Below, in pieces: positions 36,750-48,150 of a DNA stretch of 64,000 nucleotides. The stretch lies in contig NZ_JAGKSQ010000007.1 in NCBI RefSeq assembly GCF_017939705.1, forward strand, positions 124,001-188,000. Reading direction: 5' to 3'. Each line of letters starts with the position of its first letter. Within the stretch, counting starts at the first letter, position 1. The notes beneath the pieces were generated by a model, which searched no databases, was not told the DNA's origin, and saw only the letters and a program-made list of their open reading frames with translations. Source of the stretch: Halalkalibacter suaedae. GTDB lineage: Bacteria; Bacillota; Bacilli; Bacillales; Bacillaceae_D. A program made the position numbers and the translations under genes.

Positions 36750-36766
36750 TGTCAGATTATCTTACA
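36750..36766. promoter_or_regulatory. TnrA/GlnR box 1 of glnA
   Basis: TGTCAGATTATCTTACA fits the consensus TGTNA-N7-TNACA at every fixed position. Its centre is about 50 bp upstream of the predicted transcription start (about 36808). Confidence 0.8.
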
Positions 36767-36817: not shown

Positions 36818-36834
36818 TGTCACAAAACATTACA
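36818..36834. promoter_or_regulatory. TnrA/GlnR box 2 of glnA
   Basis: TGTCACAAAACATTACA is again a perfect TGTNA-N7-TNACA. It lies just downstream of the predicted transcription start and 68 bp from box 1. The ATG at 36834 overlaps its last base, which argues that translation starts at the later ATG (36855). Confidence 0.8.
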
Positions 36835-36854
36835 TGAAAAGGAAGTGTTTGGGG

Positions 36855-38216
36855 ATGGCAAGTGTATCTACACCAACAAGAGAGAGCTTAGTTGAATCAA
36901 TAAAAGAGACAATCAAGGAAAAAAATGTAGAGCTTCTACACGTTCAGTTTGTTGATATCGAAGGAACGTTAAAGCATGTAACAGTTACAGCTGAGCAAAT
37001 CGACCAAGTGGTAGAAGGAAGAGTTATGTTCGACGGTTCTTCTATTGCAGGTTTTACACCTATTAATCAATCAGATCTATACTTAGATCCAGATCTAACA
37101 ACATTCGCAGTTTTACCATGGACTGAACAAGAAGGTTATTCTGAAGCTCGTTTCATTTGTAGCGTAAAGAAGCCTGATGGTTCTGACTTTGCTGGAGATC
37201 CGCGTAATGTTCTAAAAAAAACAGTTAAGCGTGCTGCAGACCAAGGCTATTCAATCAGCGTAGGTCCTGAGCTAGAATTCTTCTTATTCGAAACAGATGA
37301 TTACGGACAACCAACACTACGCACTCAAGATGTAGGTGGTTACTTTGAAACATCACCAAAGGATTTTGGTGAAAAAGTTCGTCTTGAAATCTATAAAGCT
37401 TTGAAAATGATGGGCTTCACAATTGAAGCATCTCACCACGAAGTAGCAATTGGTCAACATGAAATTAACTTTAAGTATTCAGATGCTCTAGGAGCTGCTG
37501 ATGCTGCAACAACATATAAGTGGGTCGTTAAAACAGTTGCACAACAATTTGGCTACTTTGCGACATTCATGCCTAAGCCACTTGCTGGTGAAAACGGTAG
37601 TGGAATGCACGTTAACATCTCTTTATTTGATACAGAGAAGCAAGAAAATGCATTCTATGATGAGTCTGATGAGCTTGCATTATCAGAAAAGGCTTACCAA
37701 TTTATAGCTGGTCTTATGGACAATGTAAAGGATTTTGTTGCTGTAACAAACCCATTAATTAACTCATATAAGCGTCTAGTGCCTGGTTATGAAGCACCTT
37801 GCTATATCGCTTGGTCTGCATCAAACCGTTCAGCATTAATTCGTATCCCGGCTTCACGCGGGGCAGGTACTCGTGTTGAAATTCGTTGCCCAGATCCATC
37901 TGCAAACCCGTACTTTGCATATGCAATCATCGCAGCTGCAGGTCTTGATGGGGTTGAACGTGAGTTAACACCGGTTCCATCTGTAAATGCAGATATTTTC
38001 CACATGACTAAGGATGAGTTAGATTCTCGTGGGATTGAAAACCTACCAACTAGCTTAGAAGCAGCGGTTAATCGTTTCGAGGCAGGAGAAATTGGCTTGA
38101 AAACATTAGGTGAGCATTCATTTGGTGAGTACGTTGCACTTAAGCGTGCAGAATGTGATGCATACCGTCTTGCTGTAACAGATTGGGAAGTTAAGAGATA
38201 CCAATCTAAGTTTTAA
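36855..38216 (+). CDS. glnA: glutamine synthetase type I (divergent copy)
   Basis: 453 residues from the ATG at 36855 (AAGGAAGTG upstream; the ATG seven codons earlier lies in an operator). GS-I motifs: VMFDGSSIAGF, GPELEFFLFE, NGSGMHVNISLF, NPLINSYKRLVPGYEAPCYIAWSASNRS and RGAGTRVEIRCPDPSANPY. The residue equivalent to Arg62 of B. subtilis GS, which mediates glutamine feedback, is Pro69. No glnR lies directly upstream, unlike the usual glnRA operon. Two TnrA/GlnR boxes precede it. It makes glutamine from glutamate and ammonia. Confidence 0.9.
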   Translation: MASVSTPTRESLVESIKETIKEKNVELLHVQFVDIEGTLKHVTVTAEQIDQVVEGRVMFDGSSIAGFTPINQSDLYLDPDLTTFAVLPWTEQEGYSEARFICSVKKPDGSDFAGDPRNVLKKTVKRAADQGYSISVGPELEFFLFETDDYGQPTLRTQDVGGYFETSPKDFGEKVRLEIYKALKMMGFTIEASHHEVAIGQHEINFKYSDALGAADAATTYKWVVKTVAQQFGYFATFMPKPLAGENGSGMHVNISLFDTEKQENAFYDESDELALSEKAYQFIAGLMDNVKDFVAVTNPLINSYKRLVPGYEAPCYIAWSASNRSALIRIPASRGAGTRVEIRCPDPSANPYFAYAIIAAAGLDGVERELTPVPSVNADIFHMTKDELDSRGIENLPTSLEAAVNRFEAGEIGLKTLGEHSFGEYVALKRAECDAYRLAVTDWEVKRYQSKF

Positions 38217-43516: not shown

Positions 43517-44248
43517 GTGGGGAAGTTGACGTTACTACCAGATCAGATTCATGAATCCTGGGTTCCATTTTTAACAAAGGCTAGACAAGAGGAGATCGCC
43601 GAAATTGAACAAAAGATAGGCGATAACTACAATCCAACAGATCCAAGTGTTATTTTGCGCTTCCTCACCGTTAATTTGGATCAAGTCTCAGTTGTGTGGC
43701 TTGGACAAGACGTCTATCCGATGGAGGGCGTTGCAACTGGTCGTGCCTTCGAGGTAGGGGGATTAGCGAGCTGGAATCGACCATTTCGTCAAGTTTCATT
43801 GAAGAATATTATTCGATTAATCCATAAAACAACAAATGATATTGCTAACTATGAAGAAATCAAATCATTTAAAGAGATTCAAAAGGAGCTCGAGGAAAAG
43901 AGATTTTCACTAGCCGCACCCAATAAGTGGTTTAATAAGCTGGAAGAACAGGGTGTCCTATTCTTAAATACCTCCTTTACTTGTGAGGTAGGTATACCAA
44001 ATAGTCACAAGGATATTTGGGCCAACTTTTCTCAAGCAGTGTTACAGTACATTTCAAACAGAAACCCAAACATTATCTGGTTCCTATGGGGGAAAGAAGC
44101 GATCTCGAATAAGCAATACATTAAAGCTGGTATCTTTTATGAAAGTAGACATCCAATGATGTGTAGCTCAAAATATCCAGACGACTTCCTTAAATTCGAA
44201 GGGTTCAAGGCGACGAAAGAAAAAATAGACTGGTTAGGAAATGTGTAA
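43517..44248 (+). CDS. divergent uracil-DNA glycosylase family protein
   Basis: 243 residues from a GTG (a TTG three codons later is also possible). Family-1 landmarks are altered: GQDVYP (63-68) stands for GQDPYH, FLNTSFTCEVGIPNSH matches the LLNTxLTV block, IIWFLWG matches LLWG, and HPMM stands for HPSP. The catalytic-water Asp and the minor-groove His are retained. It could excise uracil or another base, or be a non-standard paralogue of Ung. Followed by a 555-bp gap. Confidence 0.7.
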   Translation: MGKLTLLPDQIHESWVPFLTKARQEEIAEIEQKIGDNYNPTDPSVILRFLTVNLDQVSVVWLGQDVYPMEGVATGRAFEVGGLASWNRPFRQVSLKNIIRLIHKTTNDIANYEEIKSFKEIQKELEEKRFSLAAPNKWFNKLEEQGVLFLNTSFTCEVGIPNSHKDIWANFSQAVLQYISNRNPNIIWFLWGKEAISNKQYIKAGIFYESRHPMMCSSKYPDDFLKFEGFKATKEKIDWLGNV

Positions 44249-44684: not shown

Positions 44685-44701
44685 TGTAAGCTAATCTTAC
44701 A
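44685..44701. promoter_or_regulatory. TnrA/GlnR box upstream of amt
   Basis: TGTAAGCTAATCTTACA, a perfect TGTNA-N7-TNACA. Its centre (44693) is about 49 bp upstream of the start predicted from the TATAAT at 44730-44735, the distance at which TnrA is known to activate nrgAB in B. subtilis. The -35 region is poor, as expected for an activated promoter. Confidence 0.85.
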
Positions 44702-44729
44702 ACAAGGTGGATTCAGAAAATTTAGAACG

Positions 44730-44735
44730 TATAAT
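44730..44735 (+). promoter_or_regulatory. -10 element of the amt promoter
   Basis: Consensus TATAAT with no recognisable -35 at 16-18 bp (nearest TGGATT). Together with the upstream TnrA box this suggests positive control. Confidence 0.6.
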
Positions 44736-44803
44736 AAAGACTAACAAGAGATGTTAGCTTCTCTGACGCTGACATGTCTAACATTCGAGGGGAGAGATTT
44801 TAC

Positions 44804-46072
44804 ATGCCGGAATTAGCACTTATGGATAACGTATGGATTATGATTTGTGCAGTACTTGTACTTTTTATGCAAGGTGGATTTATTCTTTTAGAAGCAGGTT
44901 CAACAAGAATGAAAAATGCTGGACATATTGCTGGTAAAACAATTTTCACTTTAGGGATTGGCTCTCTGGTCTACTGGGCAGTTGGTTGGGGCTTTTCATA
45001 TGGTGAAGGAAATGCCTTCATCGGATTATCAGATTTCTTCTTTGGAAACTATGAAACAGCAGATGAAGGATTAGTTGGTTCAGTTGATTTCTTCTTCCAA
45101 ATGATGTTCGCACTCATTGCTTTAACAATTGCGTTTGGTGGATTTGCAGAACGTGCAAAGTTATCTGCTTATGTGATTTTCGCAGTTTTATTCTCAGCTT
45201 TTGTATACCCAGTTGTTGCTCACTGGATTTGGGGTGGCGGTTGGATTTCAGAACTTGGTAAGCAGGATTTTGCAGGTTCAACGGTTGTGCATTTAACAGG
45301 GGCTGCAGCAGCACTTGCAGCGACAATTCTATTAAAGCCGCGTCTTGGTAAATACAACAAAGACGGTTCATCAAATGATTTAGCTGGACATAACCAAGTA
45401 TTCACAGCTCTTGGTGTATTGATCCTATGGGTAGGTTGGTTTGGATTTAACGCAGGTAGTACATTAGGGGTAGCCGATGCATTCTTTGGTTATGTTGCTC
45501 TTAATACGCAATTAGGTGCAGCTGGTGGTGCTGTCGCAGCATTATTTATTGCTTGGGCACTTACAGGGAAATCAGATGTTCCAACAATGTTAAATGGAGC
45601 ATTAGCAGGTCTTGTAGCAATCACTGCATCTTGTGCATTCGTAGCACCTTGGGCAGCGGTCGTTATCGGTCTTGTTGGTGGATTAATCGTATTCTTCAGT
45701 ATGAAATTATTTGACAAAGCTAGAATTGATGATCCAATCTTCGCATTATCTGTTCATGGTGTTGCAGGGGTTTGGGGTACAATTTCAACAGGTTTCTTCG
45801 CAACTCCAGAATTGTCTGAAATGGTTGCTGGTCGTCCGGGATTATTCTACGGTGGTGGTTTTACACAGCTTGGGGTTCAGATCATCAGTGTTGTAGCAGT
45901 AGCGGTTTTCGCTTTCGTTGTATCTTACATTCTATTAAAAATTACAAGTGCAATCACTGGCGGTCTTCGTGTATCTGAAGAAGAAGAGATTGTTGGTCTA
46001 GACCTTAGTGAGCACGGTAGCTATGGTTATCCTGAAAGCATGCCAGGTCAAGACACAAAGACAGGCGCATAA
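44804..46072 (+). CDS. ammonium transporter (Amt family)
   Basis: 422 residues from the ATG at 44804, preceded by GAGGGGAGAG; an ATG ten codons earlier lacks a site. Eleven membrane segments. FMQGGFILLEAGSTRMKNAGHI, the first pore His in VVHLTGAAAALAA, WVGWFGFNAGSTL and the second pore His in SVHGVAGVWGT identify Amt. The C-terminal cytosolic tail (RVSEEEEIVGLDLSEHG) is the segment that touches PII proteins in other bacteria. No glnK follows; instead a GlnD-like nucleotidyltransferase starts 3 bp after the stop. Confidence 0.93.
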   Translation: MPELALMDNVWIMICAVLVLFMQGGFILLEAGSTRMKNAGHIAGKTIFTLGIGSLVYWAVGWGFSYGEGNAFIGLSDFFFGNYETADEGLVGSVDFFFQMMFALIALTIAFGGFAERAKLSAYVIFAVLFSAFVYPVVAHWIWGGGWISELGKQDFAGSTVVHLTGAAAALAATILLKPRLGKYNKDGSSNDLAGHNQVFTALGVLILWVGWFGFNAGSTLGVADAFFGYVALNTQLGAAGGAVAALFIAWALTGKSDVPTMLNGALAGLVAITASCAFVAPWAAVVIGLVGGLIVFFSMKLFDKARIDDPIFALSVHGVAGVWGTISTGFFATPELSEMVAGRPGLFYGGGFTQLGVQIISVVAVAVFAFVVSYILLKITSAITGGLRVSEEEEIVGLDLSEHGSYGYPESMPGQDTKTGA

Positions 46073-46075
46073 GAA

Positions 46076-47092
46076 ATGAGAGAGGCAAAGGATTATACTA
46101 CCTACGGAGATCAAGAGTGGAATAAACGTTATCAAGAACTTTATGAAGAACGTCTAAGCGTCATTCATGATCGGGAGCATACCTCGGCCTCATTGCAAAA
46201 AAGTCATGATCTATTGATAAAGAAAGCGGTATGTCTCGCTCTTAAAAAGACTGAAAGTGAGTGGGGAACAGCTCCCACTCACTTTGCTTTCTTTTTAATG
46301 GGTAGCGGTGCAAGGCTTGAGCAATCGTTTTGGAGTGATCAGGATCATGGAATCATATTTGAAAGTTCGGGTGCAGAAGAGGAAGAATCTTATTTTCTTC
46401 ATGTCGGGAAAGAAATTGTCTATGCACTGAAACGAGTAGGGTACGAACCTTGTGATGGGAAAGTAATGGCGTCTAACCCAAAATGGTGTCGCTCGTACGA
46501 TCAATGGGAAAAGCAAATCAAAGGCTGGTTAAAAGACAACAAATGGGAGACCTTGCGTTATACCCTTACCTTTTTTGATTCAAGGACTCTTATCGGAGAT
46601 CCGGAGCTGCTTGAACGACTTAAGCGACTTTTATTTAATGCAGTTGACATGGAACCATATTTACTCGAACGTTTTACTGAAAACACAGGCAGGCTTCGCA
46701 AGGGAGTAGGTCTCTTCAATCAATTATTGGTTGAAACAAAAGGAAAGCAGCAAGGCAAGTTTGATTTTAAACAGACGGTATTGTTTCCATATGTAAATGG
46801 TTTACGATTACTCGCAATTGAGCAGCATATTTATGCATCTTCAACGATTGAGAGATTCGAGCAATTACCTGAAAAATATCATCATATTAAGAAATTAAAG
46901 CCTTCATTTGAAAAGTTACTTGAAAAGCGAGTTGACTGGCAGAAGGACGTACAAAGCTATGAGCATGTTCATCATCTTGCTTTGGATCAATTAAGTCAGT
47001 CTGAAAAGAAGCAATTAAAAGAATGGATCAAAGAAGGACATCAGCTCTATCAAGATATTGAGAGAATCTTCAAGAAAGGTGAATCCACATGA
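46076..47092 (+). CDS. DUF294 nucleotidyltransferase-like protein (GlnD-type NTase fold)
   Basis: 338 residues. The nucleotidyltransferase motif GSGARLEQSFWSDQDHG (76-92; Gly-Ser, Glu-Gln and Asp-x-Asp) belongs to the DUF294 branch related to the N-terminal domain of GlnD uridylyltransferase. The C-terminal helical part (about 180-335) fits the DUF294 substrate-binding domain. The CBS and cyclic-nucleotide domains often fused to DUF294 are absent. It lies 3 bp after amt and overlaps the exonuclease by 4 bp. Role inferred: nucleotidylation of an unknown partner in ammonium signalling. Confidence 0.75.
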   Translation: MREAKDYTTYGDQEWNKRYQELYEERLSVIHDREHTSASLQKSHDLLIKKAVCLALKKTESEWGTAPTHFAFFLMGSGARLEQSFWSDQDHGIIFESSGAEEEESYFLHVGKEIVYALKRVGYEPCDGKVMASNPKWCRSYDQWEKQIKGWLKDNKWETLRYTLTFFDSRTLIGDPELLERLKRLLFNAVDMEPYLLERFTENTGRLRKGVGLFNQLLVETKGKQQGKFDFKQTVLFPYVNGLRLLAIEQHIYASSTIERFEQLPEKYHHIKKLKPSFEKLLEKRVDWQKDVQSYEHVHHLALDQLSQSEKKQLKEWIKEGHQLYQDIERIFKKGEST

Positions 47093-47838
47093 TCATGAAT
47101 AACATGGTTCAATTGGTAAAGCAGCTATCAGGAAAATTGAGTCCAAATGTCTACACGTCACTTCAGCAGAAGTCTGGTGCAGCTAGGCTATCACAGCTCC
47201 GTCAAATTCAACGTGAATTAAAGCAGGAAGACATCCTAGATAGTCCTCTTACTGAACTACCATTTGTTATTTTTGATTTAGAGACGAGTGGGTTTTATCC
47301 AGATAAGGGAGATTGTATTCTTTCAATAGGTGCCGTGAAGATGAAAGGTGAGCAAATTCTCGATGAAGAAACTTACTATTCCACCGTTCACTGTCTCAAT
47401 CCTTCAGAAGAGATTCTCGAATTAACAGGACTCACTTCGGAGGAACTTGAGCAATCTCCAGCTTTAGAGGATGTGCTTGGTGATTTCTATAAATATATCG
47501 GGAAATCGACCTTAGTTGCCCACCATGCTAGTCATGAAAAGAAATTTATGTCCCATGCGACATGGCAAACATTGCGTGCGACATTTCAGCATCGAATCAT
47601 TGATACTTCTTTTTTAACGAAGGTTGTCCATCCAGAATTAAAATTGGTCACGCTCGATGAGTGCTGCGAACATTATGAGATTCCTATTTCTATTCGTCAT
47701 CATGCGAAAGAGGACGCAATGGTGACGGCACAGCTATGGCAAAAGAACATTCAACTGGCAAAGGAATTAGGGTTCGAAACATTAAGAGATGTCTACACAT
47801 ATTTAGCGAAAGGACATCAAGCGGGCTCAACCCAATAA
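47089..47838 (+). CDS. DEDDh-family 3'-5' exonuclease (DnaQ-like)
   Basis: 249 residues. Exo I FDLETSG (D63, E65), Exo II region VAHHASHEKKF, where the usual Asp appears to be Glu150, and Exo III HHAKED (H204, D209). An N-terminal helical region of about 50 residues precedes the fold. Such exonuclease genes are, to my recollection, often paired with DUF294 genes. ATGA overlap with the upstream gene shows coupling. Its substrate (DNA, RNA or an oligonucleotide) is unknown. Confidence 0.75.
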   Translation: MIMNNMVQLVKQLSGKLSPNVYTSLQQKSGAARLSQLRQIQRELKQEDILDSPLTELPFVIFDLETSGFYPDKGDCILSIGAVKMKGEQILDEETYYSTVHCLNPSEEILELTGLTSEELEQSPALEDVLGDFYKYIGKSTLVAHHASHEKKFMSHATWQTLRATFQHRIIDTSFLTKVVHPELKLVTLDECCEHYEIPISIRHHAKEDAMVTAQLWQKNIQLAKELGFETLRDVYTYLAKGHQAGSTQ

Positions 47839-47864
47839 AAATACAAATCGAAGGAGGGGCGGAA

Positions 47865-48140
47865 GTGAAGTCAAATATTCCTCGCAGACAAGCATGTTTA
47901 CCCATCAGAGTTGTGATGGAAATGACGAACTTGACAGCCCGACAAATTCGGTATTATGAAGAGCACGGGTTGGTGAAGCCGAGTCGTAACGATGGAAATC
48001 AGCGGATGTTTTCGTTGGAGGATATCGAAAAGTTTTTGGAAATAAAGGCTTTAATCAAACAAGGTGTGAACATAGCCGGGGTCAAAGCAATTTTTGCTTC
48101 TCGTCAAAAAGAAAAGGGGTCTGACCAACAACATGGTTAG
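47865..48140 (+). CDS. short GlnR/TnrA-like MerR-family regulator
   Basis: 91 residues from a GTG with GGAGGGG upstream; a longer open frame to 47736 lies inside the exonuclease gene. IRVVMEMTNLTARQIRYYEEHGLVKPSR, GNQRMFSLEDIEKFLEIKALIKQGVNIAGVKAIF matches GlnR almost segment by segment. GlnR has about 50-60 further residues and TnrA about 35-40, which contact feedback-inhibited glutamine synthetase; here only about 13 remain. Last gene of the amt unit; a terminator overlaps its stop codon. Confidence 0.85.
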   Translation: MKSNIPRRQACLPIRVVMEMTNLTARQIRYYEEHGLVKPSRNDGNQRMFSLEDIEKFLEIKALIKQGVNIAGVKAIFASRQKEKGSDQQHG

Positions 48141-48150
48141 TCCTTTTTTT
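48118..48150 (+). terminator. terminator of the amt operon
   Basis: GGTCTGACCA / TGGTTAGTCC with a six-base loop and seven T. The stem contains the last codons and the stop of the GlnR-like gene. Confidence 0.85.

Follow-up and report, generated by a model that had tools for sequence, protein, structure and literature searches.

Textbooks pair ammonium transporters with PII, yet many Bacilli have amt without PII, which raises the question of how these bacteria restrain ammonium uptake. A case in point is a locus of Halalkalibacter suaedae, an alkaline-loving Bacillus relative (assembly GCF_017939705.1, contig NZ_JAGKSQ010000007.1, positions 124,001-188,000 of the forward strand; coordinates below are positions in this 64,000-nt stretch, hereafter the window), in which amt is followed by genes for a DUF294 nucleotidyltransferase (NTase), a DEDDh exonuclease-like protein and a short GlnR-like protein (Table 1). 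The first-pass annotation had described these four genes, their spacing, a TnrA box and a terminator, and the ORF list and a reading of the DNA bear out each of them: amt and the DUF294 gene are separated by 3 bases, the latter overlaps the exonuclease gene by 4 bases, and a gap of 26 bases precedes the GlnR-like gene. Since the first three genes are kept together in relatives in place of the usual PII partner, the enzyme pair probably controls ammonium uptake. With evenly balanced confidence, we propose that the operon controls uptake independently of PII, by means of an NTase that tags a protein and an exonuclease that takes the tag off again.

Table 1. Features of the amt operon (window positions)
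Feature	Position	Strand	Detail
TnrA/GlnR-type box TGTAAGCTAATCTTACA	44685-44701	+	exact TGTNAN7TNACA; 119 bases before ATG 44804
amt, ammonium transporter	44804-46072	+	ORF opens 44774; preferred start ATG 44804
DUF294 nucleotidyltransferase with DUF294_C	46076-47092	+	PF03445, PF10335
DEDDh 3'-5' exonuclease-like protein, PRK07740 type	47089-47838	+	NF005836; Glu at ExoII acid
MerR/GlnR-like DNA-binding domain, 91 aa	47865-48140	+	GTG start; MerR_1
Terminator-like hairpin and T-run	stem 48121-48140, T-run to 48150	+	consensus scan

The sequence preceding amt is consistent with nitrogen control. By-eye reading of the DNA favors the internal ATG over the ORF opening as the start of amt, with GAGGGGAG just upstream. 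The window holds 5 sites of the TnrA/GlnR type against 1.48 expected. Of 40 family loci, 26 have a box within 400 bp 5' of amt, and 64 of the 80 named loci (the best 80 among 321 relatives) have one between -400 and +60 relative to the ORF start; the window rate predicts about 0.01 by chance per 460 bases. A consensus scan lists no sigma-70 promoter on the plus strand 5' of amt; TATAAT can be read by eye at 44730-44735. Terminator-like stems number 6 in the scanned region versus a mean of 3.1 in shuffles.

The host genome has one amt copy, one DUF294 gene and no match to PII in a search whose control was found in 13 of 14 genomes, in line with the absence of PII assumed in the first-pass annotation. 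What that annotation had taken as telling against its reading, a normal glnK-amt operon elsewhere together with an arrangement not conserved in relatives, is not what we find. The trio amt-DUF294-exonuclease stands in a row in all 40 family loci and in 79 of the 80 named loci, which as the best 80 of 321 relatives are near kin and overlap the family-locus genomes; these and all counts over related genomes are non-independent. Among 150 amt genes listed in 200 genomes of the class, lower-scoring amt genes lying outside this sample, 49 directly precede DUF294, 19 more lie within 3.5 kb of it, 38 sit beside PII, and 44 have neither partner; none of the 150 has both DUF294 and PII at one locus. 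Both partner types occur, at separate amt genes, in seven of the 200 genomes and in three more of the family. Of the weak P-II matches in family relatives (E 1e-9 or worse), the one cluster scanned (L149) holds a tandem P-II protein that adjoins DUF1538 genes, and so is not a glnK. The operon resembles amtB-glnK in having a regulator gene that adjoins amt and a TnrA/GlnR-type box before it, but differs in that its partner is an enzyme pair.

The first enzyme of the pair is a single NTase unit of 338 aa in which Pfam finds only DUF294 (117 bits, cut-off 21) and DUF294_C (87 bits, cut-off 22.5), with no signal-binding domain; none of the operon's proteins has an HD or ACT domain. The motif GS..EQ..DQD and a third Asp are present; GS, DQD and the third Asp are kept in the window and 40 family Amt-linked sequences (L094 has a short ORF opening at the motif; in L128 the gene is interrupted), as are the catalytic acids across the class. 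Searching the PDB with a profile of DUF294 recovers no relative; what comes back is a pair of glycoside hydrolase sequences (E 0.098). For the predicted model (pLDDT 92.3), the nearest solved folds by Foldseek are DrrA (by its structure title a Legionella enzyme that transfers AMP) and the glutamine synthetase adenylyltransferase GlnE (3k7d: E 1e-6, TMq 0.64), at about 14-15% identity over the structural alignment. Of the GlnD-type fold put forward in the first-pass annotation, the motif is present and the nearest solved folds are DrrA and GlnE rather than GlnD, which is absent from the 50 matches listed from a library that may or may not hold a GlnD structure. The nucleotidylation chemistry it proposed is suggested by the kept catalytic acids and by the protein-modifying adenylyltransferases nearest in fold. 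The likeness to GlnE has limits, in that GlnE carries two NTase units per chain and adenylylates glutamine synthetase.

The second enzyme scores 85 bits to RNase_T and 331 bits to PRK07740 (curated cut-off 261), and its model has a DnaQ/RNase T fold (pLDDT 86.3). Its Exo I and Exo III acids are kept, and the Asp position of ExoII, set by alignment to the PolC exonuclease, is Glu in the window protein and in all 40 family sequences. We reject a dead exonuclease because relatives in the class carry Asp or Glu there and keep the remaining acids where readable. That the exonuclease is the partner of the NTase is well supported: DUF294 is within 2 kb of all 37 exonucleases above the cut-off and of 39 of the 51 weaker ones, and of the 78 genomes that encode an exonuclease of this kind scoring at least 160 bits, 77 also encode DUF294. 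As for the earlier idea that the exonuclease acts on a nucleotide product, it might remove a tag or degrade a free nucleotide. (L257 and L278 were left out of the NTase and exonuclease trees.)

We envisage that TnrA, perhaps together with the tail-less GlnR-like protein, would act on the box and thereby make the operon respond to nitrogen supply. Either Amt or another protein of the ammonium pathway (glutamine synthetase or TnrA, for instance) could then receive a nucleotide or short chain from the DUF294 enzyme, and the DEDDh enzyme would hydrolyze it off again, the role of the HD domain in GlnD; the two would hold the place that PII (GlnK) has at other amt loci. GlnD shares with this scheme the writer-eraser idea, an NTase and C-domain of related Pfam families (available text of PMC3710099) and, in actinobacteria, a place in the amtB operon (available text of PMC4285133). 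It differs in its HD (removal) and ACT (glutamine-sensing) domains and its PII substrate, the second enzyme here being of the DEDDh type. A similar NTase/DEDDh pair follows another kind of transporter gene: a longer NTase form (cNMP-CBS-DUF294) plus exonuclease lies behind sodium:solute symporters (SSF), also in other phyla, and differs in transporter family, in its extra CBS and cNMP sensor domains and, among the family sequences, in the residues at the third acid (Ser or Ala) and at ExoII (F-D). Tentatively, and a little short of even confidence, we suggest that NTase and DEDDh enzyme form a general nutrient-transporter regulator, a nucleotidylation writer and eraser acting on unrelated carriers (Amt, SSF), which took the place of PII in two Amt clades of Bacilli. 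The SSF substrates would be of the acetate type, and uptake by both kinds of carrier would risk costly futile cycles.

Other readings of the pair must be weighed. In one, the NTase would produce a small nucleotide signal (either a short oligonucleotide or a metabolite that carries a nucleotide) to regulate Amt or transcription, and the exonuclease would break this signal down; the side-by-side arrangement of nucleotide-making and nuclease-like enzymes, the nucleotide-binding CBS and cNMP domains of the symporter-linked form and the match of the exonuclease to 3'-5' exonuclease folds including Cap18 all fit, but the signal-making CD-NTases fall far behind GlnE and DrrA as fold matches (E about 0.1 and worse), and the short Amt-linked NTase has no domain in Pfam to bind such a signal, so we regard this as unlikely. 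It is quite unlikely that the pair works on RNA, the NTase adding nucleotides to a 3' end and the exonuclease trimming it (on a tRNA, for example, or on the operon transcript), and is only loosely connected with ammonium: the folds nearest the exonuclease act on DNA or RNA, RNase T included, yet RNA-tailing enzymes match the NTase poorly (TUTase E about 0.1, prob 0.16) and the constant transporter neighbors are left unexplained. The two enzymes could also be hitch-hikers in a common operon, functionally untied to Amt, much as DUF5327 and DUF423 neighbors are often kept in the family; against this, and rendering it very improbable, the link persists across the class, survives altered gene order (L347 and L349 have the NTase and exonuclease genes ahead of amt, and L350 has a convergent arrangement) and is seen in two Amt clades, a single clade of DUF294-linked Amts being rejected at p-AU 5e-6 (groups picked from an earlier tree, p not adjusted; 25 main and 6 clade-2 DUF294 sequences kept, without L365, L366, the neither-partner sequences and part of the DUF294 sequences; duplicates L251, L257, L263 and L273 left out of the Amt tree). 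Finally, modification of a small molecule is scarcely credible, since the aminoglycoside nucleotidyltransferases that suggest it match the fold at E 0.06 at best, far behind GlnE and DrrA, and it gives no reason for the amt operon or the exonuclease partner.

If the pair does tag and untag a protein, what might the target be? Amt (PF00909, 403 bits; TIGR00836, 425 bits, above cut-off) ends in ...HGSYGYPE..., and the first-pass annotation had named the Amt tail, along with glutamine synthetase, for a test of nucleotidylation. Tails were read, among the Amts listed, for 48 of 49 directly before DUF294, 17 of 19 near it, 30 of 38 linked to PII and 32 of 44 with neither partner: YPE is present in all 65 DUF294-near Amts, in none of the 30 PII-linked ones and in 16 of the 32 others, and the extra Tyr (xYGYPE) is absent from 7 of 47 sequences (L277-L281, L283, L304). 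We rejected the Tyr as a marker of the NTase target: of the 16 YPE Amts with neither partner, compared by hand, 8 come from genomes that carry a short DUF294 at another place and 8 from genomes that lack one, so the tail marks Amt clades, not the enzyme. A Tyr also occupies the matching position in 30 of 30 PII-linked Amts read, and the tail is not supported as a specific target. The earlier interpretation is partly supported: the missing PII, the conservation and the separation of DUF294 and PII at individual amt genes speak for it, whereas the tail as a specific target finds no support.

Glutamine synthetase is another candidate. At the alignment column that we take to be the adenylylated Tyr of the E. 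coli enzyme, the synthetase in the window has Phe and the second one in the genome Tyr; a glutamine synthetase gene lies between amt and NTase in two clade-2 loci, and both of these enzymes lack the Tyr. Their presence inside these loci is a point for the tag-and-removal reading, as is a TnrA-like fourth gene in one relative (L233). Points against it are the loose tracking of the NTase by the Amt tail, the Phe in the window synthetase, the 14 of 39 NTase loci with no adjoining exonuclease (one at a contig end), the 44 listed amt genes with neither partner and the nucleic acids for which the exonuclease group is otherwise known. A further point against it comes from P. fluorescens, in which mutation of a cNMP-CBS-NTase gene gave no phenotype according to the available text of PMC5715377.

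The amtB-DUF294-dnaQ operon itself is already present in Table 1, footnote d, of a 2012 paper (PMC3412718) for Anoxybacillus, Geobacillus, Paenibacillus and Brevibacillus. The three genes are the same; function, PII exclusion and the fourth gene are absent from the discussion in its available text, and the table leaves unmarked B. halodurans and B. pseudofirmus OF4, whereas an H. halodurans strain (L184) and OF4 (L183) carry the trio here. Our literature search, which took in few subscription journals and no bioRxiv preprints, found no functional study of the operon; passages of papers that seemed to concern DUF294 dealt with DUF2946/DUF2947. A conserved pair, absent from all PII-linked amt loci sampled and with the predicted fold of a protein adenylyltransferase, offers concrete candidates for the restraint of uptake; since the pair also stands behind SSF symporters in other phyla, a single biochemical result could account for an uncharacterized gene pair that is widespread among bacteria.

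An optional part of the operon is its fourth gene, which encodes a tail-less GlnR-type DNA-binding domain. This domain matches MerR_1 at 67 bits and, in the PDB, best GlnR (E 1.2e-26) and TnrA (E 4.8e-11), and the protein stops before the GlnR-type C-terminal tail, an autoinhibitory element that contacts glutamine synthetase according to the reference list of PMC3412718. The gene adjoins the trio in 25 of 40 family loci, 24 of them encoding an equally short protein and one (L097) a protein about 25 aa longer, and in 47 of the 80 named loci (best 80 of 321), of which 38 are as short and 8 have about 20-30 more residues; the end of the L233 protein resembles that of TnrA.

The amt operon (Table) is a real, conserved unit. 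Rereading its ORFs and DNA bore out the intergenic spacings of 3, -4 and 26 described in the first-pass annotation, and the unit ends in a terminator-like hairpin. The box upstream of amt is an exact TGTNAN7TNACA, and a TATAAT read by eye puts its centre ~49 bases 5′ of the likely transcription start, a spacing found at TnrA-activated promoters. The host genome, a 4.32-Mb draft that is 98.7% complete, carries a single amt and a single DUF294 gene, and a PF00543 search of it for PII returned zero matches, the control being positive in 13 of 14 genomes. A TnrA-like gene is present elsewhere (locus L161); with the fourth-gene product as query (E 0.01), the search returned the query itself, this TnrA-like gene and one distant match in a 278-aa frame, so no full-length GlnR was seen in the host genome.

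Table. Features of the operon and its surroundings (window positions).
Feature	Position	Pfam/NCBIfam match
amt	ORF from 44774; ribosome site favours ATG 44804	Ammonium_transp
DUF294 protein	46076-47092	DUF294 + DUF294_C
Exonuclease	47089-47838	RNase_T/PRK07740
GlnR-like domain gene	GTG 47865 to 48140	MerR
Box upstream of amt	44685	
TATAAT	44730-44735	
Glutamine synthetase gene	36834-38216	
Boxes upstream of glutamine synthetase	36750-36766 and 36818-36834	
243-aa protein	43517-44248	none in Pfam

In the 41-genome family sample, amt and DUF294 are each present in 40 genomes, the same single genome having neither, and amt, DUF294 and exonuclease are consecutive in 40 of 40 loci (from 39 other genomes), with the DUF294 gene interrupted in L128; a GlnR-like gene accompanies 25 of the 40 and the box 26. 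Among the best 80 of 321 named loci, the top matches being Halalkalibacter species, amt adjoins in 80 and the exonuclease in 79, the one other stretch stopping shortly past DUF294; a GlnR/TnrA-like gene occurs in 47 and the box in 64. PF00543 matches appear in 15 of the 41 family genomes and are strong in three only (G013, G024, G025), where each adjoins a second amt; the others are weak (E 1e-9 or worse). The single weak cluster scanned (L149, 3463-5595) encodes a tandem protein with two P-II domains next to DUF1538 genes, and so not a GlnK. Five family genomes (G008, G018, G020, G023, G027) have a second amt whose open frame runs to 767-861 aa; at that length it is perhaps an Amt fused to a signalling domain.

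The relation to PII was counted in 200 genomes drawn from the class, in which 150 amt genes among the matches listed were set against DUF294 and PII matches: DUF294 lies directly downstream of 49 and within 3.5 kb of 19 more, PII lies within 600 bp of 38, and 44 have neither partner, counts whose weight is reduced by kinship among the genomes. Because none of these 150 amt genes has both, and seven genomes carry both partner types, each at a separate amt, DUF294 seems to replace PII instead of accompanying it. The operon very probably fills the role of PII at this locus through a different mechanism. The pairing with Amt is double: on a 127-Amt tree the DUF294 and PII labels require two switches, neither-partner rows being left out, and confining DUF294-linked Amts to one clade is rejected (p-AU 5e-6) on 59 chosen rows and for a grouping seen beforehand. 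In a quick, midpoint-rooted tree the nucleotidyltransferases (NTases) belonging to the second Amt clade group separately (support 100), distinct from the main Amt-linked and the symporter-linked NTases, while the symporter-linked NTases fall among the main Amt-linked ones. The second-clade NTases have DLD instead of DQD. At two second-clade loci, glutamine synthetase separates amt from the NTase or exonuclease on the other strand. Other genes occur near amt in class relatives (L345 4867-5559 and 2774-3358, L348 4833-5483), namely an MgtC-ACT gene placed between amt and DUF294, and ANTAR-domain genes adjoining amt. Separate merR-DUF294-exonuclease clusters headed by the GlnR-like gene occur in L350 (4841-6907, convergent with amt) and L380 (3175-5268, a stretch without amt).

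The NTase and exonuclease also travel together away from amt. In all 15 family loci fetched, a longer paralog, cNMP-CBS-CBS-DUF294-DUF294_C (domain order taken from one locus, L142), sits downstream of a DUF4212 gene and a gene for an SSF symporter, and in 14 an exonuclease comes next, L137 stopping at a contig end. The two are clustered in all nine plasmid stretches, chosen for spread, with a symporter gene ahead in five; in the Marivivens (L152) and Paracoccus (L153) plasmids response regulator genes, joined in the latter by a sensor kinase gene, separate DUF294 from a longer exonuclease-domain protein of ~690 aa. At 39 class loci where DUF294 is away from a listed amt, BLAST (1e-5) found the exonuclease in 25 and a symporter in 18; in seven it found the NTase and an ActP-type symporter but not the exonuclease, and in another seven, including one at a contig end, the NTase was accompanied by neither. 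Of the PRK07740-type exonucleases, 37 of 37 over the curated cut-off have DUF294 within 2 kb; so do 39 of the 51 that score lower (160-261 bits), and 11 of the remaining 12 are in genomes that have DUF294. DUF294 is present in 77 of 78 genomes with an exonuclease of at least 160 bits; 17 of the 94 genomes with DUF294 have none of 160 bits or more, and in some of these a lower-scoring exonuclease adjoins the NTase.

Aligned family and class NTases keep GS, R-x-E and D-x-D; the third acid is Asp in Amt-linked rows (family, and class where readable, L278 being masked) and Ser or Ala in symporter-linked family rows. In the exonucleases Exo I is conserved, as is Exo III wherever it can be read; the Exo II residue, at the catalytic Asp position by alignment to PolC exonuclease, is Glu in the window and 40 family rows and Asp or Glu in other class rows. 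The NTase model (pLDDT 92.3) is nearest in fold to DrrA (E 6e-8), followed by both halves of the E. coli glutamine synthetase adenylyltransferase (E 1e-6, 1e-5) and, more weakly, aminoglycoside nucleotidyltransferases (E 0.06), CD-NTases and TUTase (~0.1); the exonuclease model (pLDDT 86.3) has a DnaQ/RNase T fold. The kept active sites and predicted folds favour, without proving, a protein-modifying NTase for which the exonuclease would serve as phosphodiesterase partner. Reversible nucleotidylation is the best-supported chemistry of the operon, with about an even chance of being correct.

The gene set is already known, from a table footnote recording an amtB-DUF294-dnaQ operon (PMC3412718, Table 1). 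In other papers, a mutant in a cAMP-binding/CBS/NTase gene is reported to have no phenotype and a prediction of nucleotidylation is cited (PMC5715377), DUF294_C is grouped with GlnD and HEPN C-domains (PMC3710099), and the UTase and HD domains of GlnD are described (PMC4285133). The literature searched yielded no functional study of the operon and no statement of DUF294/PII mutual exclusion; within it, this exclusion, the double Amt pairing and the module common to symporters are new.

The fourth-gene product is closer to GlnR than to TnrA and stops after the DNA-binding domain; lacking the tail that acts as sensor, it may recognise the same boxes yet not respond to glutamine synthetase. Adjacent fourth genes in 47 named loci are equally short in 38, have some 20-30 extra residues in eight, and in one (L233, Thalassobacillus pellis) end in a TnrA-like tail, not the GlnR-like domain end. 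The Amt tail reads ...YPE in 65 of 65 DUF294-near Amts read, none of 30 PII-linked Amts and 16 of 32 with neither partner, half of these 16 in genomes with a short DUF294 elsewhere and half in genomes without; this ending marks Amt clades in which the NTase is usually present and does not prove contact. The glutamine synthetase gene in the window is closely preceded by two exact TGTNAN7TNACA boxes, with no glnR in front; its product has Phe in the alignment column of E. coli adenylylation, where the genome's second glnA has Tyr. The 243-aa protein at 43517-44248 resembles uracil-DNA glycosylase only below curated cut-offs.
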